DNA from: Alphaproteobacteria bacterium | Lineage (GTDB): Bacteria > Pseudomonadota > Alphaproteobacteria > UBA8366 | Direction: 5' to 3' | Assembly (NCBI GenBank): GCA_028281325.1 | Contig: JANQKC010000010.1 | Coordinates: forward strand, 186,001-250,000 | Length of the DNA: 64,000 nucleotides | Part shown: positions 34,873-62,490 of the stretch, one piece after another | How the letters are laid out: each line of letters opens with the position of its first letter | How positions within the stretch are numbered: the first letter of the stretch is position 1 | Program-made: the position numbers and the translations under genes | The notes under the pieces: generated by a model | Databases searched by the model: none | What the model was told of the DNA's origin: nothing | Seen by the model: the letters and a program-made list of their open reading frames with translations, nothing else

Positions 34873-34887
34873 TGCGAATGATTCGCA
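34873..34887. promoter_or_regulatory. Fur-box-like palindrome, first sigma gene
   Basis: TGCGAAT-G-ATTCGCA is a perfect 7-1-7 palindrome 117 bp before the sigma ATG at 35005. It is a GC-rich form of TGATAAT-n-ATTATCA and is identical to the site at 57753. Confidence 0.75.
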
Positions 34888-35004: not shown

Positions 35005-35523
35005 ATGACGCAGCGGACCTTCGAGACCCTGGCCCAGGCCGTCGAGGCGTATTACGAGGAGCTGCGCCGCTTCGTTCGGCGCCGGACGGGGTCCGCGGTT
35101 CTCGCCGACGACGTGGTGCAGGAGACCTGGATTCGCGCCAAAGCGACCAAAGCCGAAATGCCCAACAACGCGCGGGCTTATCTTTACCGCATTGCAGGAA
35201 ATCTCGCCGTCGATCACCTCCGGCGGGTTAGCGCACAGGAGAAAACCGTCGTCGACGCGGGGGCGACCGAGCAAGTCGCATGCCCGTTTCCCGCTCCCGA
35301 CGTGGCGCTTGCGTCGCGGCAAGAACTGGCCATCTTGACCGAAGCGATCGAAACGCTGCCGCGGAAATGCCGTACCGTGTTTCTTCTTTATCGCGGACAC
35401 GGCCTCACGATGCGCGAAATCGCCGAGCGGCTCGACATTTCCGAAAAGACGGTCGAGAAACATATTGCGCGCGCCATGGTGCATTGCCGGCGGCGGTTAA
35501 GAGAGGCAGGGCGTAATGTCTGA
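35005..35523 (+). CDS. ECF sigma factor, FecI-like (module 1)
   Basis: The 172-residue protein has region 2 (Y-Y-E-E-L-R-R-F-V-R-R-R-T-G...A-D-D-V-V-Q-E-T-W-I-R) and region 4 (L-P-R-K-C-R-T-V-F-L-L-Y-R-G-H-G-L-T-M-R-E-I-A-E-R-L-D-I-S-E-K-T-V-E-K-H). FecI-type sigmas are held by FecR until a loaded receptor signals, then start transcription of the receptor operon. The fecR gene follows 78 bp on, and the receptor after that. A perfect Fur-box-like site upstream predicts iron repression. Confidence 0.92.
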   Translation: MTQRTFETLAQAVEAYYEELRRFVRRRTGSAVLADDVVQETWIRAKATKAEMPNNARAYLYRIAGNLAVDHLRRVSAQEKTVVDAGATEQVACPFPAPDVALASRQELAILTEAIETLPRKCRTVFLLYRGHGLTMREIAERLDISEKTVEKHIARAMVHCRRRLREAGRNV

Positions 35524-35601
35524 ATCGGCATGCGGTTTAACGCTCTGCCCGCCCGGGACGAACCGACAGTGCGACGCGTTGTTGGATAGTGGGAATCCGG
35601 C

Positions 35602-36615
35602 ATGACAAACGATCGAACAACGGAACCGCGGGACACGCTCTCCGATGCGATGTTGCTCGACGCCGCAGCCTGGCACGCGCGCCTAAACGACGCCGATGCG
35701 AATCCGGCTGAATCCGCGGCACGGCGGACGGAGTTTAATCAATGGCTGCAGACGGACCCGCGTCATCCGAATGCCTTCGCGGAGACGGACAGCCTGTGGC
35801 GCGCGCTCGAAGCCCCTGCTGCGGACATTGTTTCCCGCTCCACATCTGGATCCGGGGAGAACCGGCGTGGGAGAAAACAAGGCTCTCCCTTGAGGCGGCG
35901 CATGGCTGCGGTCGCGGCCTGCCTGTTTCTCGCCGCCACCGTGGGCGTCATCGGGCAGGACGATCTACTCCTTCAACTTCGCAGCGACCATGTTTCGGAT
36001 GTTGGCGAACGCGTGCCCCTGGCACTCCAGGACGGTAGCGAAATCACGCTCAACACCGACTCCGCCATCGCGGTGAGTTTCGGTCCGGACCGGCGCGTCG
36101 TCCGCCTTCTCAAAGGTCAGGCCTGGTTCGACGTCGTGCAGGACGAAGACCGCCCGTTTCATGTCGAAACTCCGGTCGGCGCCGTTCACGTCACGGGCAC
36201 GCGTTTCGACGTTCGGCTCGACGGCGACACCGCTCTGGTAAGCCTGACGAAAGGACGGGTCGCTCTATCGACCAAACCCGATGTGCCGGAATCGCCGCCC
36301 CTCGTGCTGACGCCGGGACTACAGGCGCGTGTCTCCGCCAACGAGATTTCCAACGCGACGCCGTTCGACAAAACGGCGGTGACCGCATGGCTGCGCGGGC
36401 AACTCGTCTTTTACGACACCCCGCTCATACAGGTCGTCACGGAGTTAAACCGCTACCGGAAGGGACGGATCGTCGTGATAAACGAGGAGCTCGAGACTCT
36501 TCGAATCAGCGGCGTCTTCCGAACCGACGACAGCGAGTTGGCGCTTTCCGCAATCGCCGGGACGCTTCCGCTGCGGATCATCAGACTTACCGACTACTTG
36601 GTTCTTCTTCGTTAA
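35602..36615 (+). CDS. FecR-type anti-sigma/signal transducer (module 1)
   Basis: The 337-residue protein has an N-terminal sigma-binding domain (DUF4880; A-A-A-W-H-A-R-L-N-D...F-N-Q-W-L-Q-T-D-P-R-H-P-N-A-F-A-E, residues 20-66), one membrane helix (about 101-118), and a periplasmic FecR domain (G-E-R-V-P-L-A-L-Q-D-G-S-E-I-T-L-N-T-D-S, L-L-K-G-Q-A-W-F-D-V). The C-terminal L-R-I-S-G-V-F-R-T-D-D part would contact the receptor STN domain. It relays occupancy of the receptor at 36733 to the sigma at 35005. Confidence 0.93.
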   Translation: MTNDRTTEPRDTLSDAMLLDAAAWHARLNDADANPAESAARRTEFNQWLQTDPRHPNAFAETDSLWRALEAPAADIVSRSTSGSGENRRGRKQGSPLRRRMAAVAACLFLAATVGVIGQDDLLLQLRSDHVSDVGERVPLALQDGSEITLNTDSAIAVSFGPDRRVVRLLKGQAWFDVVQDEDRPFHVETPVGAVHVTGTRFDVRLDGDTALVSLTKGRVALSTKPDVPESPPLVLTPGLQARVSANEISNATPFDKTAVTAWLRGQLVFYDTPLIQVVTELNRYRKGRIVVINEELETLRISGVFRTDDSELALSAIAGTLPLRIIRLTDYLVLLR

Positions 36616-53408: not shown

Positions 53409-55802
53409 CTAGAACGTTGCGCGAAGCGTGAGAGAAATGGCCCGCGGCTCGCCGGGGAATGTGCTCCGGAAGGTGTCTCCGCTCGTGCTCGCGTTCACGT
53501 AGTAGCGTTTGTCCGCGATATTCTTGACATTGAGCTGCGCGTGCATTGTGTCGGTGATGCGGTAGCCGAGAAATGCGTCAAATGTCGTATAACTCGGCAG
53601 GGACAACGAGTTGGAATCGTTCAAGACACGTTTGCCCGTGTAGAAGACGCCGCCCCCAAGGGTCCAACTGTCAAGATCGCCGGGCAACTGATAGGTCGCC
53701 CACAAGCTTGCCGTATGCTGCACGGATCCGGAAAGTTGATTGCCAACGATGGTTTCGTCCGTGTCTTCCGTGACCTCCGAATCGAGCACCGTAACTTGAG
53801 CCAGGATATTCAGTCCCGGATAGAGTTCTCCCGTCGCTTCCAACTCGACGCCTTGGACCTCGACCTCGCCGGTTAGAACATCGAAGCCTGGGTTCGCCGG
53901 ATCATCCACCACGATATTGCTCTTGGTAAGGGAGAACAGCGCCGCGGTGGTGGTGAGCCGGCCGTCGAACCATCCCTGCTTATAGCCGATCTCGAATTGC
54001 TCGCCCTTGGATGGATCCGCAACGCCACCGCCCAATATGTCGACGTCCCAATTCGGCTCGAAGGAGGTTGAATAACTGAAATAGAGCAATGAACTCTGGG
54101 TCGGCGCATAGGTTAGGGCGCCGTTCGGCGAGGTCCGGCGGATTTCTTCGGACGTCTCATCGTTTTTCAGAATATCGTGGCGGACCCCGACTTGAAGGCC
54201 GAAACCGGCGCCCAAATCGATGCTATCCTGAACGAAAAACCCATAAGCGCTGCTTTCCTCGGTCGAAGCTCCGTTCGGATTGGCCGGTATCGTCGTTGCC
54301 GTAAGCTGTGGGCTGAAAACCGAGACGTTTGGCAGGTTCACGTTCAGAAACGGCGTGTCCGTCGACGCGAACCGATAGAAATCCGCGCCGACAACAAGAT
54401 CATGCTCGATACCGAAAGTATCAACAGCGCCGCTGATGTCCGCTCGCGCGGTGATCGAGTCGCGCTCGGAATCAAGGCGCTGGAAAAGGCGGCGGGTAGT
54501 CTCGCTCCCGTCGGGGGTCAAACCACGGAGCGAAATAAAATTGTTGTCGCGGATGAGCTTATCTTGCCCGAACCGAGCTCGGAATTGCCAATCGGCCCAG
54601 AGTTTCTGCAATAACTCAATTGAGTATCGGTACTCTTCCAGGTCATATTCCAAATTCGCGTCGCCGTAGAATGCACTGTCGGGCAACGCATCCGCGGACT
54701 CCAAGCGAGTGGGATCCGGCACCGGCCATCCCGGATTCGCCAATCGTTCGGTCTTCTGATAATCGCCCGCCACATTCAATATCGTGCTTGAGGTGATGTC
54801 CCAGCTTATCGCGCCGGAAACGCCCCGGCGCAGCGGATCGACCTCGTCGGTAAACGCGCCGCCGCTTTCGAAGCCCGCCGTCAACCGATAACGGAGCGTC
54901 TTGCCCTCATCGAGCGGCCCGGTCAGATCGATGGCCCCCTTGTAGAGGTCGAAACTGCCGGCGGTGAGTTCCATGCCGTATCGCGCTTCGTCGAGCGGCT
55001 TTTTCGTCACGTAATTGATGAAACCGCCGGGCGTCGACTGCCCGAAATCAATGGCATTTGGTCCCTTGATCACTTCGACGCGCTCGATGTTGTACAAGGC
55101 GGGGTCCGACTGATGGGGGAACCGATAGCCGTCCCGCAGATAGGTCCGTGAATTGTCGGCGTCGATGCCGCGCAACTGGAACCGTTGGTAGGTTCCCTGG
55201 AAATCGTTCACACGACTGACGCCGCTCACGTTACGCAGCACGTCCACTTCGTTGGCGGGCTGCTGGTCTTCCAGGATGGATCGCGTGATCACGCTGACCG
55301 AACGCGGTGTCTCAAGGCGGGTTTGCCCCAACCGATTGCCTTGTATGACGGACGTGCTCGCATCATAGCTACGGTCGGATGTTTCGCCCTCGACCCGAAT
55401 GGGGTCAAGTTGAATGGCGCCGTCGTCGGCCGCCAAATCCACCAGCGCAACCATCGAGCCGTTGAGGCGGTAGGAGTTGCCGGTTCCGGCGAGAAGCGTC
55501 CCAATCGCCCGCCGCCAGGTCATCTCACCCGCAACCGGAGCGCTGCGTTTCCCGGCCACAAGGGCGGCATCGGCCGTCGTTTGAAAACCGGCCTGACGCC
55601 CGAATTCGACGAGCGCACTCGCGAGGGGTTGTGCCGGAATGTTGAAACGCCGCGTCTCGACCCGCGTCTCCGTCGTTTGCTCCGCTTGAGCTTGCGCCGG
55701 CATGACCGGTGCAGTTGCGGCCATCGCCGCGCATACGACCACGGCGAGGCGGCAGCGTTTGATCATCATGGATTCACGGCTTCGCGTATTCGTATCGGAC
55801 AT
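53409..55802 (-). CDS. TonB-dependent siderophore receptor with STN signalling domain (module 3)
   Basis: The 797-residue receptor has a signal peptide (I-K-R-C-R-L-A-V-V-V-C-A-A-M-A-A-T-A-P-V-M-P-A-Q-A) and STN domain (R-R-F-N-I-P-A-Q-P-L-A-S-A-L-V-E-F-G-R-Q). A box-like L-D-P-I-R-V-E-G and a plug with V-I-K-G-P-N-A-I-D-F-G-Q-S-T-P-G-G-F-I-N follow. It ends R-A-T-F. A later start at 55769 or 55766 is possible, as the first 11 residues are polar. The motifs suggest a ferrichrome/hydroxamate-type ligand, but the ligand cannot be named. Confidence 0.92.
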   Translation of the reverse strand: MSDTNTRSRESMMIKRCRLAVVVCAAMAATAPVMPAQAQAEQTTETRVETRRFNIPAQPLASALVEFGRQAGFQTTADAALVAGKRSAPVAGEMTWRRAIGTLLAGTGNSYRLNGSMVALVDLAADDGAIQLDPIRVEGETSDRSYDASTSVIQGNRLGQTRLETPRSVSVITRSILEDQQPANEVDVLRNVSGVSRVNDFQGTYQRFQLRGIDADNSRTYLRDGYRFPHQSDPALYNIERVEVIKGPNAIDFGQSTPGGFINYVTKKPLDEARYGMELTAGSFDLYKGAIDLTGPLDEGKTLRYRLTAGFESGGAFTDEVDPLRRGVSGAISWDITSSTILNVAGDYQKTERLANPGWPVPDPTRLESADALPDSAFYGDANLEYDLEEYRYSIELLQKLWADWQFRARFGQDKLIRDNNFISLRGLTPDGSETTRRLFQRLDSERDSITARADISGAVDTFGIEHDLVVGADFYRFASTDTPFLNVNLPNVSVFSPQLTATTIPANPNGASTEESSAYGFFVQDSIDLGAGFGLQVGVRHDILKNDETSEEIRRTSPNGALTYAPTQSSLLYFSYSTSFEPNWDVDILGGGVADPSKGEQFEIGYKQGWFDGRLTTTAALFSLTKSNIVVDDPANPGFDVLTGEVEVQGVELEATGELYPGLNILAQVTVLDSEVTEDTDETIVGNQLSGSVQHTASLWATYQLPGDLDSWTLGGGVFYTGKRVLNDSNSLSLPSYTTFDAFLGYRITDTMHAQLNVKNIADKRYYVNASTSGDTFRSTFPGEPRAISLTLRATF

Positions 55803-55914
55803 TGCTGAGGACCCACCATTTCCATATTCCAGTCGATGGGATCGTCAGCCGCCCAAATGCCGCGCAATACCGATCCCTATACCCTGGACGGATGGAGCGG
55901 TGAAGTTTCCAATA

Positions 55915-55934
55915 GCAGCAGAGAATTTTTTGCC
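55915..55934 (-). promoter_or_regulatory. Candidate sigma-dependent promoter element, module 3 receptor
   Basis: On the minus strand, GGCAAAAAATTCTCTGCTGC lies about 113 bp before the receptor start. It shares GGCAAAA and the spacing to the start codon with 42950-42968. A second possibility downstream is GGAAAC with CGTC 15 bp later (about 55887-55907). Confidence 0.35.
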
Positions 55935-55977
55935 TGGTGTACCGGCCGATAAGGTTGATCTGTTAACAGCCGGGCTT

Positions 55978-57018
55978 TTATTCAGCGGTGATAATGGTCA
56001 ACCATGGGGAAACCTGCCACAACACCGCGTTGTGGGATGCGGCAAGGTCGCGCAGCGTCTTTTCCGGATCTGCGAGATCGTAGAGGCCACTGACTCGTTT
56101 CTCGGCAAAGGCATGGTTCCAGACGATAATTGCACCGTCATAATAGGGACGAAGGTCATCGACGATCTCGCCGATGGGACGGTCGTAGGCAATCAATTCA
56201 CCCCGCACCCAATCCCCGATCTGATCCAGTGAGGCGTCACCGCGCCGAGCACCCGTTGCACTTACTTCAATCCAATCGCCGGACACGAGTTCTTCGTTCG
56301 TCGGTGTCGGTGTCGTCGTATCCTCGACGCGAACGCGACCGCTCGTCACCGCAACGGTTGTCCCCTTTTTCCCGTAATCCACCTCGAACGCCGTCCCGAG
56401 TACGGTAACCACCACTTCCCCGGCGCGAACCTCAAAGGGCCGTGACGACTCGGGGACCACATCGAAGTAGGCTTGACCTTCGATCAGACGAATGCGGCGC
56501 GATCCGCCGGTCAGCGAAACGTCGATCGCGCTAAGCGGCGCCAAATGCACGCGGCTGCCATCGTCAAGCGCAACGATACGCCGTTCCGCGGTGGCCGTCG
56601 CGTAGTCCGCCTGCATCCTGACAACCGTGTCGGGCAGTCGAAATGCGACGATTCCGACGATCAAAACCACGGCGGCGGCGATCCCCGACAGGCGGGCGAG
56701 AGACTTACGCGTCGGCCGCTCTCTCGTTGGCGGCGCCGGCTTTTGCAAACGTGGCTCGTCTTCTCCAGGGCGAACCCCGGCGTCGCGGCCGGTTTGCGCG
56801 CGTCGCCGCGCGTCCGCCGCCATACCGACAAGCCCATAGGCGCGGTTGGTCCGCACCCAAATCTCTTCGTGCAAGGGACTCGCCGACCGCCACAGGTCTA
56901 ATTGGGCGCGAAGTCCCGCGTCGTCCGGCGCTTCTGATAGGCGGACAAGCCATTGGGCCGCCTCCTCTTCCACGCGGTCGCGCGCCTCCGCCGACAAGTC
57001 ATCCGGCAAATTTGTCAT
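55978..57018 (-). CDS. FecR-type anti-sigma/signal transducer (module 3)
   Basis: The 346-residue protein has the N-terminal sigma-binding domain (A-A-Q-W-L-V-R-L-S-E-A-P-D...L-D-L-W-R-S-A-S-P-L-H-E), a helix near 112-132 and the periplasmic FecR domain (A-E-R-R-I-V-A-L-D-D-G-S-R-V-H-L-A-P, L-I-E-G-Q-A-Y-F-D-V, V-L-G-T-A-F-E-V). The ending L-Y-D-L-A-D-P-E-K-T-L resembles the receptor-contacting part. It lies between its sigma and its receptor on the same strand. Confidence 0.93.
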   Translation of the reverse strand: MTNLPDDLSAEARDRVEEEAAQWLVRLSEAPDDAGLRAQLDLWRSASPLHEEIWVRTNRAYGLVGMAADARRRAQTGRDAGVRPGEDEPRLQKPAPPTRERPTRKSLARLSGIAAAVVLIVGIVAFRLPDTVVRMQADYATATAERRIVALDDGSRVHLAPLSAIDVSLTGGSRRIRLIEGQAYFDVVPESSRPFEVRAGEVVVTVLGTAFEVDYGKKGTTVAVTSGRVRVEDTTTPTPTNEELVSGDWIEVSATGARRGDASLDQIGDWVRGELIAYDRPIGEIVDDLRPYYDGAIIVWNHAFAEKRVSGLYDLADPEKTLRDLAASHNAVLWQVSPWLTIITAE

Positions 57019-57183
57019 TAGGCTCTCTTCGGTAGCTCCGCTTCGGTGTAAGCGATGCTTACACCGAAGCGCAACACCACAGCCAAATTCAACGAAACAT
57101 CAACCCATAGACGAATGGAGGCACGCCTTTTCCAACAGAAACCTCTGTGGTGCCGGGCATCCACAGCAAACATATAGAACAGA

Positions 57184-57681
57184 CTACAGCGCGCGCTGGC
57201 AATGGCGCACGCCCTCGACCACCAGGACTTGGGCCATGGAAACCGAGATGCCGAGATGCGCGGCGATTTCTCTCAATGTGCACCCTTGAATGCGATGCAT
57301 CTCCAGGGCGGTGCGGGTGCGTTCCGGCAGTTGCGCCATGGCGGCGGCGACCCGATCGAGTTCCTGGCGCGCGATGATTTCGTCTTCCGGCGACGGTTTG
57401 CTTTCGGCGACGGTCTCGACGAGATCCGCGGTGGCTGTTTTGATAAGACGGTTCTCAAAGCTCCGACGGCGGTGTCCGTCAACCGCGAGGTTGCGGACGA
57501 TGCGATAGAGATAACGCACCGGCTCCTCCAGAAGTCGCTCCGCCGCCGCCTTGCGAAACCGGAAGAAAGCCTCCTGAACCACATCTTCCGCGCGCTCGAC
57601 ATCTCCAAGGATGCTGTTTGCGTAGTGGATGAGCTTGCCCCGATGGGCGACATAGACAGCCAAGAGTTCGTCGTTCGGCAC
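57184..57681 (-). CDS. ECF sigma factor, FecI-like (module 3)
   Basis: Regions 2 (Y-V-A-H-R-G-K-L-I-H-Y-A-N-S-I-L-G-D-V-E-R-A-E-D-V-V-Q-E-A-F-F-R) and 4 (L-P-E-R-T-R-T-A-L-E-M-H-R-I-Q-G-C-T-L-R-E-I-A-A-H-L-G-I-S-V-S-M-A) are complete. The open frame extends to 57807, but a perfect Fur-box-like site at 57753-57767 lies inside that extension and residues before the GTG at 57681 are unlike the family. I therefore choose GTG 57681 (165 residues). Confidence 0.85.
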   Translation of the reverse strand: MPNDELLAVYVAHRGKLIHYANSILGDVERAEDVVQEAFFRFRKAAAERLLEEPVRYLYRIVRNLAVDGHRRRSFENRLIKTATADLVETVAESKPSPEDEIIARQELDRVAAAMAQLPERTRTALEMHRIQGCTLREIAAHLGISVSMAQVLVVEGVRHCQRAL

Positions 57682-58177
57682 GCTTTTCCGGGTCGCCTCT
57701 TGATGTTGTCGCGAGAAACCTTCTGGTGCGTGGACAGCCCAGACCGCATCGTTGCGAATGATTCGCATTATTATTGCATGCTGTTGACTTGGCAATCGGA
57801 AAGGCATCGCCGCAGATAGTCGCGATGTTTTATGTTGAAATTGCGACTTAGTTTCATCATAAGTTTAGCGTCAGTTCAAGTTGGGGTCGGCGAAAACTCT
57901 TGCCGTTCATATGTGACCCTTAGCGCGAGCCTCGCCGAGAGGAGAAGCCATGTTTATCGTGATGAACCATTTCCGGATGTGCACGGGACATGCTCAAGCG
58001 TTCGAGATTGATTGGCGGACCGTCAGGCACACAGGGATACCGGATAGAACAATGGGTTCCATTTCGACCCTCCGCCGTTCGAAGGCTTCGATATCGTGTT
58101 GAGCGCGGGAGAAGCCGCAACATAACCGGCCGCGAGACGGAACTTGGTGGGGAGGCCCGCTCGGGGCGTGGGCAAGA
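57682..58177. other. Divergent regulatory gap between modules 3 and 4
   Basis: With the sigma start at 57681 this 496-bp gap holds the Fur-box-like site at 57753-57767. It also has an AT-rich stretch near 57825-57875 that may be promoter sequence for either side. No further gene is seen. Confidence 0.5.
57753..57767. promoter_or_regulatory. Fur-box-like palindrome, module 3 sigma
   Basis: TGCGAAT-G-ATTCGCA, a perfect 7-1-7 palindrome identical to the one at 34873-34887. It lies 72 bp before the preferred GTG start of the module 3 sigma gene. Confidence 0.75.
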
Positions 58178-58717
58178 ATGCGAGACTCGGTGCTACTGGA
58201 AACTTATCGAGAGTACGAGTGGGAGCTGCTGCGGTTTCTCGCCGGCCGGCTCGGGTGCGCCAGCCTCGCTTCCGACATCGCACACGACCTCTACGTCAAG
58301 CTGCTCCAGGCCAAGGAGCACCCGCCGATCCGCGACCGCCGCAACTATCTGTTCAGCATGGCAGCCAACCTGGCGACCGACCATCTGCGCGTCGAGTCAC
58401 GCCGCAGGGAAATCCTCGCCGACGCCGACGGACTGGTGTGGCGGCGAGACGACGAGTTGACGCCGGAACGCCACGCCATGGCGCGAGCCGAATTCGACTA
58501 TCTGAAAGCGGCGATCGCCAAGCTTCCGCCACGTTGCCGGCAGGTGTTCTACCTCAGCCGCTTCAAGGGGCAGACGCAGGCGGAGATTGCCGAAAAGCTT
58601 GGGATCGGACTGACCACGGTTTACAAGGACCTGAAGACAGCGATTGCCGCGATGATCGAAGCGCGCCGGCGGTTCCGCGCCGCCGTTTCACCGGACGAGG
58701 AGCAAGAAAAGACATGA
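58178..58717 (+). CDS. ECF sigma factor, FecI-like (module 4)
   Basis: A 179-residue sigma with region 2 (Y-E-W-E-L-L-R-F-L-A-G-R-L-G...A-S-D-I-A-H-D-L-Y-V-K-L) and region 4 (L-P-P-R-C-R-Q-V-F-Y-L-S-R-F-K-G-Q-T-Q-A-E-I-A-E-K-L-G-I-G-L-T-T-V-Y-K-D-L). No strong ribosome site precedes the ATG. Unlike the other three sigmas, I see no convincing Fur-box-like site just upstream. Its TGA overlaps the start of a 34-codon ORF by 4 nt. Confidence 0.9.
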   Translation: MRDSVLLETYREYEWELLRFLAGRLGCASLASDIAHDLYVKLLQAKEHPPIRDRRNYLFSMAANLATDHLRVESRRREILADADGLVWRRDDELTPERHAMARAEFDYLKAAIAKLPPRCRQVFYLSRFKGQTQAEIAEKLGIGLTTVYKDLKTAIAAMIEARRRFRAAVSPDEEQEKT

Positions 58718-58818
58718 GCTCACTCGTCTACAGTGTGGAAACGGCGCGCCGGGCCCGCTTCCGGTTCGCAAACCCTGTCTCGGCCAAACTTTACTACGAT
58801 CTCGCCGTATTCGAATGA
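58714..58818 (+). CDS. 34-residue ORF coupled to both the sigma and fecR genes
   Basis: The ORF begins at the ATG of ATGA shared with the sigma stop and ends with TGA overlapping the fecR ATG (ATGATG), so each junction overlaps by 4 nt. The peptide begins M-S-S-L-V-Y-S-V-E-T-A and ends A-K-L-Y-Y-D-L-A-V-F-E, with four Arg among residues 12-18. It has no signal or membrane segment and no family I know. It may be a small regulator of the sigma or FecR, or may exist mainly to link their translation. Confidence 0.5.
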   Translation: MSSLVYSVETARRARFRFANPVSAKLYYDLAVFE

Positions 58819-59843
58819 TGACGGAGCCGATAGATCAACGCGCACGGGCCGCCGCCGTCGAGGAGGACGCGCAGGACTGGTTCCTTCGTTTCGTCTCGGG
58901 CGACGCGTCGGAACAGGACCTCGACTCGTTCCTCGCGTGGCGCGACGCCGATCCAAGTCATCGCGCCGCCTATGAAGAAATTCGCGACCTCTGGAACGAC
59001 ATCGACGGGTTCGAGGCCGCCTTCGCGCCGACCAACCGGGCGGCCGCCGTACACAACGCGCCCGTCCGCGCGGCCTTATCGACGGCGCGGGTGCGGCGGC
59101 AAAGCCGTCAACGAACCGGTTTTAGGCGCGGCGGGATTGCGGCCGGTCTCGCCGCGGCCTGTTTGGCGCTGCTGGTCGTCTTTGCCGGCGACGTGCCGAC
59201 GCGCGTCATGGCGGATCATCGCACGGGCGTCGGCGAGCAGGCCGAGGTCCGCCTGCCCGATGGGTCGACCGCCTATCTCAACACCGACACGGCCCTCTCA
59301 ATCGAATACGTCGATAACGGCAGACACATCTCGCTTCTTCGCGGCGAAGCCTGGTTCGACGTGGCGAAAGACCCAAGGCGTCCTTTCTTCGTGCTAGCCC
59401 TCGGGGGCCGCACAACGGCGACCGGCACGGCCTTCGCGGTGCGGGACCGGGGCGAAATCGCGACGGTCACGGTAACCGACGGATCGGTCGCGGTTTCGTC
59501 GCCGGCATCGGACGCCGAATCACGCCTTTTGATCGCCGCCGGCGAGCGCGTCAGTTACGCAAAAGGCGGCGCGCCAGGACCGGTGGGCGAGGCCGATATC
59601 GTGTCCACGACCGCATGGCGCAAGGGAATGATCGTTATCGACGGCCTGCCGCTCGACCGGGCAATCCAGGAAATCGACCGATATCTGCCGGGCAGAGTAC
59701 TTTTAGTCGCCGATACGTCGGCGTTCGAACCGGTGACGGCGCGCCTCTCGCTCCGGACGCTCAATAGCGGCCTCGAAGCGCTGGCCGCAACGCACGGGCT
59801 CGCCGTCATACAAGTCGCGGGCTACCTGACGATCGTCCACTGA
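58815..59843 (+). CDS. FecR-type anti-sigma/signal transducer (module 4)
   Basis: The 342-residue protein has the sigma-binding head (D-A-Q-D-W-F-L-R-F-V-S-G-D-A-S...F-L-A-W-R-D-A-D-P-S-H-R-A-A-Y-E-E), a helix near 114-131 (I-A-A-G-L-A-A-A-C-L-A-L-L-V-V-F-A-G) and a periplasmic FecR domain (V-R-L-P-D-G-S-T-A-Y-L-N-T-D-T, R-G-E-A-W-F-D-V). It starts inside the stop codon of the 34-residue ORF. It links the sigma at 58178 with the receptor at 59995. Confidence 0.92.
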   Translation: MMTEPIDQRARAAAVEEDAQDWFLRFVSGDASEQDLDSFLAWRDADPSHRAAYEEIRDLWNDIDGFEAAFAPTNRAAAVHNAPVRAALSTARVRRQSRQRTGFRRGGIAAGLAAACLALLVVFAGDVPTRVMADHRTGVGEQAEVRLPDGSTAYLNTDTALSIEYVDNGRHISLLRGEAWFDVAKDPRRPFFVLALGGRTTATGTAFAVRDRGEIATVTVTDGSVAVSSPASDAESRLLIAAGERVSYAKGGAPGPVGEADIVSTTAWRKGMIVIDGLPLDRAIQEIDRYLPGRVLLVADTSAFEPVTARLSLRTLNSGLEALAATHGLAVIQVAGYLTIVH

Positions 59844-59883
59844 GGCTCCAGCGGCAAGAAACACTGAAAAACCGAACCGACGC

Positions 59884-59902
59884 GGCAACGGTTTTTGCGG
59901 CG
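59884..59902. promoter_or_regulatory. Candidate sigma-dependent promoter element, module 4 receptor
   Basis: GGCAACGGTTTTTGCGGCG, 92 bp before the receptor ATG, followed 6 bp on by CGTC, a typical -10 core of FecI-type sigmas. It resembles the block at 36619-36640. Confidence 0.4.
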
Positions 59903-59930
59903 CCACTCGTCTACTTAAAAGGAACATTAT

Positions 59931-59951
59931 CGCGAATGCGTCGCATTCGCG
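59931..59951. promoter_or_regulatory. Overlapping Fur-box-like dyads, module 4 receptor
   Basis: CGCGAAT-G-CGTCGCA (59931-59945) and TGCGTCG-C-ATTCGCG (59937-59951) are related 7-1-7 dyads shifted by 6 bp, together a longer palindrome around CGAATGCGTCGCATTCG. They lie 44 bp before the receptor ATG. Confidence 0.6.
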
Positions 59952-59994
59952 TAATTTTCTATTGATAATCAATGTGGTGACGGGAGCAGGAAGA

Positions 59995-62490
59995 ATGGCG
60001 TCGAAAACAAGCATCCGCGGGCGTGGCTCGATCAACGGTGGACACCGCCAGGGCGGCCGAAATCTGGAGAGGATCGCACAAGCGGGCCGTCGCATGGCCG
60101 GGAGCGCCATCGCCGGTCTCGCGATCGGCGTGGTCGTCAGTATCCTGGCGCCGGTCGCCGCGGCGGATCCAGGGTCGGCTCTTTCCGTTGCTCAGAACAC
60201 CGAGACACAACGGTTTTCCATCGAGGCGCAGCCGCTCGCGGCGGCGTTGGACCGCTTCTCGGAACAATCGCGGATTTCCTTCGCCTATAAAACGAGCGAC
60301 CTGTCCGGACTTCGGTCTCCCGGCGTATCGGGGTCGTTCACATCGGCAGATGCGCTCCAACGCCTTCTTGCCGGCACCGGCGTCACCTTCAGTTTCACCG
60401 ATCCGAAGACGGTAACGCTCCAGCGCAGCGCGGCGCAAAAGCAAGAAGGCATAATGGAGCTTGGCCCGATCACCGTCGAAGGGCAATCCGAGAGCGCGGT
60501 CGGCCCGGTCGACGGATACGTGGCCCGGCGCAGCCTAACCGGTACAAAGACGAACACGCCGCTGATCGAGATTCCGCAGTCGATTTCCGTGATCACGCGG
60601 GACCAGATCGATGCCCTGTCGGCCGACACGTTGAACGAAGCATTGCGTTACACGCCTGGTGTCACGGGCGAGGTGTTCGGCAATGACAGCCGCGTCGACT
60701 TTCTGCAGCATCGCGGCTTCGACGAGAATGGCACCGGCGTGTACCGGGACGGCCTGCAGCTCCGCTCGACGGCGTTTGCGGAATTCCGCCCGGAACTCTA
60801 CGGCGCGCAACGCGCCGAAGTCCTGCGCGGCCCGGCGTCGGCGGTCTACGGGCAGGCAACGCCCGGCGGCGTGATCAACGTCGTCACCAAACGTCCGCCG
60901 ACGGATTTCTTCTCCGAGGTTAAAGTGGAAGTCGGCAACTTCGACTACAAGGCCGGCATGTTCGATATCGGCGGGCCGATAGCCGGCAGCGAAAAAGTGT
61001 CGGTCCGTTTGACCGGTCTCGCCCGCGACGGTGAAACCCAGATCGATTTCATCGACGACGACGGCCAGTATATCGCCCCGGCGGTGACCTTGCGGCCGAC
61101 CAAGGATACGACGTTTACCGTCCTGTCCCACTATCAGCGGGACCGCACCGGCGCCACCAACCAATTCTTGCCGGCGTCAGGCACGCTGGACTTCAACCCG
61201 AACGGGGTCATTCCCACGAGCCGTTTTACCGGCGAGACCGATTTCGACACGTTCGACAGGGACGCTTTCGCAATCGGGTATCTGCTCGAGCACCAGTTCA
61301 ACAAGACCTTCACCGTCCGGCAAAACGCGCGCTACGACTATCTCGACACCAAGTTCGTTACCGCCTTCGGCGGCGGCTTGCAGGCGGACCAGCGAACGTT
61401 GAACCGCTTCGCCTTTGAGGCCATCGGCAAGACCGATCTCTATACCGTCGACAGTCAACTCCAGGCGTCATTCGTCACCGGCCCCGCGGCGCACACGCTG
61501 CTCTTCGGGATCGATTATCAACGCTTCGACGTGGACGACATCCAGAAGTTCGGCTCGGCGCCGTCGCTGGACGTGTTCGATCCGGTCTATGGCGCGGCCG
61601 TTTCGGCGCCACCCACGACCACCGACCTGAACATCACGCAAGACCAGATCGGCGTTTATCTGCAAGAGCAAGTCAAACTCTACGACAAGCTCGTGCTCGC
61701 GCTAGGCGGCCGGCAGGACATCGTCATGTCCGACCGGAAGAACAACCTGAACAATACCGAGACCGAGCAGGACGACAACGAGTTCAGCTATCGGGTCGGA
61801 CTGGTCTATCTGACAGATTTCGGCGTGGCCCCCTATGCCACCTATGCACGGTCGTTTCTGCCGATCATCGGCGCCGACGTCAACGGCAACGCATTCGAAC
61901 CGGAAACTGGCGCGTTGTGGGAGATGGGCCTCAAGTACCAGCCAAAGGGTTCGAACACGTCGGTGACGCTGTCCGTCTTCGATCTGACGCGTCAGAACGT
62001 TCTAACGCCCGATCCGAGCAATCCTGTGAACCAGGTTCAGACGGGCGAGGTTCGCGCGCGCGGCGTCGAATTGGAAGCCGTCGCCAGCTTCGACTTCGGC
62101 TTGGATATGATCGCCAGCTATTCCTATCAAGACGTGGAAGTCACCAAGAGCAACCGCGGCGACGAAGGCAACCGACCGGCCACGGTGCCGGCGCATCTGC
62201 TCGGGATTTGGGGCGACTACACTGTTCCCGACGGCATGTTCGGCGGCTTGGGCTTCGGCGCAGGCGTCCGCTACAAGGGATCGACCTTCGGTGACGCGGC
62301 GAACACTTTCAAGGTGGATGACTATGTCCTGGTCGATGCGGCCGTCCACTACGACTGGCGGGGCCTCACCGTCGCCATAAACGCGGAGAATATCTTCGAC
62401 AACCGGCACGTCGCGTCGTGCAGCAGCGCGAACGCGTGCTTCTACGGAACCGACCGCACGGTAATCGGTAGCGTGCGCTATCGCTGGTGA
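59995..62490 (+). CDS. TonB-dependent siderophore receptor with STN signalling domain (module 4)
   Basis: The ATG at 59995 has a purine-rich GGAGCAGGAAG just upstream; a TTG at 59962 is a weaker choice. The 831-residue receptor has a long, basic N-terminal leader (signal helix about residues 35-58) and an STN domain (R-F-S-I-E-A-Q-P-L-A-A-A-L-D-R-F-S-E-Q). TonB-box-like L-G-P-I-T-V-E-G and a plug with L-R-G-P-A-S-A-V-Y-G-Q-A-T-P-G-G-V-I-N follow. It ends V-R-Y-R-W. Near the end C-S-S-A-N-A-C may form a disulfide. The plug is of the siderophore type. Confidence 0.93.
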   Translation: MASKTSIRGRGSINGGHRQGGRNLERIAQAGRRMAGSAIAGLAIGVVVSILAPVAAADPGSALSVAQNTETQRFSIEAQPLAAALDRFSEQSRISFAYKTSDLSGLRSPGVSGSFTSADALQRLLAGTGVTFSFTDPKTVTLQRSAAQKQEGIMELGPITVEGQSESAVGPVDGYVARRSLTGTKTNTPLIEIPQSISVITRDQIDALSADTLNEALRYTPGVTGEVFGNDSRVDFLQHRGFDENGTGVYRDGLQLRSTAFAEFRPELYGAQRAEVLRGPASAVYGQATPGGVINVVTKRPPTDFFSEVKVEVGNFDYKAGMFDIGGPIAGSEKVSVRLTGLARDGETQIDFIDDDGQYIAPAVTLRPTKDTTFTVLSHYQRDRTGATNQFLPASGTLDFNPNGVIPTSRFTGETDFDTFDRDAFAIGYLLEHQFNKTFTVRQNARYDYLDTKFVTAFGGGLQADQRTLNRFAFEAIGKTDLYTVDSQLQASFVTGPAAHTLLFGIDYQRFDVDDIQKFGSAPSLDVFDPVYGAAVSAPPTTTDLNITQDQIGVYLQEQVKLYDKLVLALGGRQDIVMSDRKNNLNNTETEQDDNEFSYRVGLVYLTDFGVAPYATYARSFLPIIGADVNGNAFEPETGALWEMGLKYQPKGSNTSVTLSVFDLTRQNVLTPDPSNPVNQVQTGEVRARGVELEAVASFDFGLDMIASYSYQDVEVTKSNRGDEGNRPATVPAHLLGIWGDYTVPDGMFGGLGFGAGVRYKGSTFGDAANTFKVDDYVLVDAAVHYDWRGLTVAINAENIFDNRHVASCSSANACFYGTDRTVIGSVRYRW

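Follow-up and report, generated by a model that had tools for sequence, protein, structure and literature searches.

The window analysed here, a stretch of 64,000 nucleotides of alphaproteobacterial DNA, carries a FecI-type ECF sigma factor gene followed by a short open reading frame (ORF), a gene for the anti-sigma regulator FecR and a gene for a TonB-dependent siderophore receptor (Table 1). Domains were assigned from Pfam matches above the cut-offs, and the order of an ECF sigma factor with regions 2 and 4, FecR and a receptor with an STN domain is that of a FecI/FecR/TonB-receptor surface-signalling cassette. The ORF is locked to its neighbours by two ATGA tetranucleotides. At 58714-58717, the TGA stop of the sigma gene and the start of the ORF share 4 nt, and at 58815-58818 the TGA stop of the ORF and the start of fecR do the same. 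This double overlap, claimed in the original prediction, is present in the sequence, and the gaps between sigma and fecR that were given for the other three modules of the window (78, 111 and 165 nt) agree as well. At 53409-62490, two sigma-fecR-receptor cassettes stand back to back and run in opposite directions, with 370 bp between their sigma genes (57807 and 58178), and the genome has about ten such cassettes.

Table 1. Genes and sequence elements of the cassette, with positions in the window
Feature	Position	Strand	Remarks
FecI-type ECF sigma factor gene	58178..58717	+	Pfam Sigma70_r2, r4 and r4_2 matches
Predicted -35 of fecR promoter, GCAAGA	58702..58707	+	Within the last sigma codons; GCAA spacing as at the receptor
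34-codon ORF between sigma and fecR	58714..58818	+	Reading MSSLVYSVETARRARFRFANPVSAKLYYDLAVFE
Predicted ECF -10 of fecR promoter, CGTCTA	58725..58730	+	Within CACTCGTCTAC, 58721-58731; ORF codons 4-6
FecR anti-sigma regulator gene	58815..59843	+	Pfam FecR and DUF4880
Predicted -35 of receptor promoter, GCAACG	59885..59890	+	
Predicted -10 of receptor promoter, second copy of CACTCGTCTAC	59904..59914	+	
Palindrome GCGAATGCGTCGCATTCGC, taken to be Fur-box-like	59932..59950	+	Upstream of the receptor gene
TonB-dependent siderophore receptor gene with STN signalling domain	59962..62490	+	

The ORF is less singular than was claimed. All three other modules have a short ORF that begins close to the sigma stop and ends close to the start of fecR: a 29-codon ATG ORF in the 78-nt gap (start -8, end +4), a 51-codon ORF in the 165-nt gap and a 31-codon ORF in the 111-nt gap that ends near fecR. 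In the module with the 78-nt gap (35523-35602), the ATG ORF bridges sigma to fecR. The focal ORF is the last part of a long open frame that runs out of phase through the sigma gene and has no stop codon over the 592 nt before the sigma stop. The double 4-nt overlap is seen in 4 of 44 long-gap cassettes, compared to 2.0 expected from shuffles, and is not by itself beyond chance.

A promoter-like element common to the gap and the receptor upstream region

The strongest feature of the interval, missed in the original prediction, is a promoter-like element that it shares with the receptor gene. The 11-mer CACTCGTCTAC has exactly two copies in the whole 5.1-Mb genome, one in the ORF and one in the upstream region of the receptor gene, and the distance from GCAA to CGTC is 23 nt in both places; the agreement at the -35 in the focal gap comprises 4 nt only. 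In having a promoter-like element common to the anti-sigma gene and the receptor gene, the cassette agrees with an autoregulated anti-sigma of the HasI/HasS type. Orthologs retain CTCGTCTAT at the predicted -10 site, those at 65% sigma identity having CCCGCTCGTCTAT / CCCACTCGTCTAT in the same position, and they have CACCGG equally spaced in the gap and in the receptor promoter. The sigma-fecR gaps of relatives contain a recurrent CGTCTTAT/CGTCCTA-like string, a candidate -10 that has the form of an ECF element. Another module has its own sequence pair (TTGTAATGGCGCCGC...CGTCTTAATC vs TTGTAATGGTGCCGC...CGTCTGATTC), as does a further one (TTGGAAAAGGC...CTCCATTCGTCTATGG vs TTGGAAACTTC...CTCCATCCGTCCAGGG). 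A sigma-70 promoter scan of 57600-60200 returned no site in the sigma-fecR gap, its sole site being located at 57767-57795 on the minus strand.

Gaps and receptor upstream regions are paired by module, each resembling its own partner more than those of other modules, with a permutation p of 5e-5 in 28 cassettes and an exact p of 8/40320 in eight cassettes of the focal genome. The pattern CGTC[CT][AT] is found in 19 of the 28 gaps of this first set (2.6 expected) and in 1 of 19 gapless cassettes (0.8 expected). It was picked after the first set had been viewed and was hence retested on two later sets. The hold-out gaps contain it in 8 of 17 cases, against 1.18 expected and with 0 of 500 shuffles as high, and no enrichment is seen in the hold-out at the sigma end or at the beginning of fecR. 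The third set has it in 12 of 42 gaps (2.4 expected), the short-gap cassettes of the same set in 4 of 56 (2.9 expected). Two cassettes, L129 and L140, have the variant CGTCATAGC, which is missed by the pattern and also matches their receptor promoters.

A predicted sigma-driven promoter of fecR

From these sequence comparisons, the sigma-fecR interval is probably a promoter from which the cognate FecI-type sigma factor transcribes fecR, where we infer both the working of the promoter and the identity of the sigma factor that would use it. When the receptor signals, the freed sigma factor would switch on the receptor gene together with fecR, such that the FecR brake is topped up along with the receptor; replenishment of FecR at each activation would then allow for a fast shut-off. 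Transcripts from the fecR promoter would be expected to begin at about 58736-58740. Since the ATG of the ORF (58714) lies between the predicted -35 and -10, such transcripts would start after it and could not carry the start codon, and the ORF would occur solely on read-through mRNA from sigma.

Palindromes of the form GCGAATG..T.GCATT, which we take to be Fur-box-like, are found at 34874, 36680, 41271, 43014, 57754 and 59932, close to sigma and receptor genes in the iron cassettes of the window, and their count is reached by 0 of 100 shuffles. The sigma-fecR gaps were found to contain no such palindrome, which would leave sigma as the sole driver of fecR.

Some observations speak against a fecR promoter. 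The module with the 78-nt gap, in the same window, lacks a recognisable CGTC-type element as well as cognate pairing with its receptor promoter. Gapless cassettes also show a weaker residual pairing signal (p 0.015 and 0.003), which probably reflects shared genome composition. Finally, the putative transcription start site (TSS) mapped upstream of fecR in Sinorhizobium meliloti speaks in favour of a fecR promoter, but its authors recognised no promoter motif there (PMC6180224).

Alternative readings of the short ORF

One alternative is that the ORF, whatever its sequence, serves as a translational bridge on a read-through sigma-fecR mRNA, with ribosomes that end sigma restarting at the overlapping ATG, crossing the gap and restarting at fecR. 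Brake and sigma factor would thereby be kept in ratio, as proposed in the original prediction, and the reading is compatible with a promoter in the same place. It is favoured by an excess of bridging ATG ORFs among the gaps of the near set (found in 15 of 44 vs 7.75 expected, reached by 0 of 200 shuffles) and by a depletion of stops in the frame that closes at the fecR start (22 vs 46.6 expected), the other frames being undepleted with 49 and 56. The depletion is seen in set 1 (z -2.8), in set 2 (z -2.75) and for the near cassettes (z -3.9). In the focal genome, the fecR-start frame is open in 7 of 8 long gaps compared to 2.5 expected, none of the 8 gapped fecR genes is preceded by a Shine-Dalgarno-like motif, and the frame is kept in L127 and L128 even as these diverge. 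However, 42-43 more distant cassettes, set apart beforehand as a replication, show no depletion (z about +0.5). Some of the open frames of the focal genome lack an ATG or GTG start close to the sigma stop, coding-like GC periodicity was not found across the gaps, and the exact double overlap is, as noted, not in excess. Open and closed frames were not clearly divided by a split on the Shine-Dalgarno motif. The depletion of stops may be peculiar to the near lineages or else a statistical accident. A sequence-independent bridge is possible, though somewhat less likely than not, and may accompany the promoter. A composite history, in which a sigma-activated fecR promoter came to lie between sigma and fecR in this lineage and short bridging ORFs of arbitrary sequence restored the translational overlap that was lost, such that the interval acts as promoter DNA for one transcript and as a ribosome bridge on the other, appears rather unlikely.

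It is improbable that the ORF arose by chance alone in a GC-rich spacer that contributes to neither transcription nor translation. In favour of chance, the double overlap is within expectation, the long out-of-phase frame runs through sigma, no Rfam family was found at the locus and folding of the junction gave no RNA structure (z +1.06). Yet the genome-unique 11-mer shared with the receptor promoter and the motif enrichment in three cassette sets show that the spacer is not inert.

The original prediction also suggested that the ORF encodes a small modulator of sigma or FecR. The 34-residue peptide has no family match in Pfam or NCBIfam. A class-wide search recovered sigma orthologs at 65-66% identity in two genomes (G177 and G358), in which the ORFs from the same ATGA read MTAPLVYSVNTSPTRPSSPLRCQPE and MMIPLVYCMNATPIRHSSTRRCQPE. 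Searches of genus, family and order around G177 gained one usable cassette (G424) and no nearer ortholog, and no conserved ORF peptide was found among the genomes of the ortholog search (G177, G358, G043, G037 and G424). When the two nearest orthologs are compared, the ORF differs by 11 nonsynonymous and 2 synonymous changes, a pN/pS of 1.82 based on one ortholog pair and 13 substitutions, as compared to 0.08 for sigma and 0.42 for fecR in the same pair. Purifying selection on the peptide was thus not found in this pair, and the bias towards synonymous change in relatives that had been proposed as a check is reversed. A point in favour of a small protein is the tripeptide LVY, which is present in the sigma-stop ORFs of four homologous cassettes (focal, L127, L128 and L091). 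In the first three, however, LVY is the translation of the DNA motif CTCGTCTA(C/T), and in L091 this motif lies in a different frame; moreover, the lengths of the four ORFs are 34, 25, 25 and 39 codons and their C-termini are unrelated. These data point away from the ORF as a conserved protein, and a functional peptide that modulates sigma or FecR, with an unconserved sequence and substitutions that favour amino-acid change, is highly unlikely.

Comparison with known systems

The predicted fecR promoter has its closest counterpart in Serratia marcescens, where HasI activates hasS and a fast shut-off by replenished anti-sigma factor has been argued for HasS (PMC9249621). As in HasI/HasS/HasR, the anti-sigma gene would have its own promoter for the cognate sigma factor, with a sequence common to the receptor promoter. 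The two differ in promoter sequence, with TTTACGGGTTT in the -35 region in Serratia and a CGTC -10 here; furthermore, the element predicted here lies within the 3´ end of sigma and a short ORF and accompanies a siderophore-type receptor. According to a recent review, activation of the anti-sigma gene by an iron-uptake sigma factor is confined to HasI, and the fecIR genes of Escherichia coli form a single transcript that is not autoregulated (PMC9249621). The present cassette resembles E. coli FecI/FecR/FecA in its sigma-FecR-TonB receptor composition and in the FecR/DUF4880 domain organisation, and differs in the additional promoter predicted for fecR. It shares with fecI/fecR of S. meliloti (SMc04203/SMc04204) the alphaproteobacterial cassette and, there, the putative TSS upstream of fecR; the difference lies in the promoter element, predicted here and not recognised there, and a change of fecR upon FecI overexpression is not listed in the table of that study (PMC6180224). 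Autoregulation was not reported for HemI of Stenotrophomonas maltophilia (PMC12772443). With its predicted fecR promoter for the cognate sigma factor, the interval would be a variant of the HasI/hasS arrangement, one that appears to recur widely among FecI/FecR cassettes with a gap.

Judging by the shared element, activation of fecR by sigma may be common in alphaproteobacteria in which a gap parts sigma from fecR. If true, many iron-uptake switches would gain negative feedback, and a simple sequence rule would predict where fecR is sigma-driven. The case would also illustrate how short out-of-frame ORFs in GC-rich operons can overlie promoters.

One further observation concerns L129 (1360-5431, G177:C3), a second cassette of G177 that is 46% identical. 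Its receptor reading frame is split across two overlapping frames, and one in-frame TAA is listed for its sigma match.
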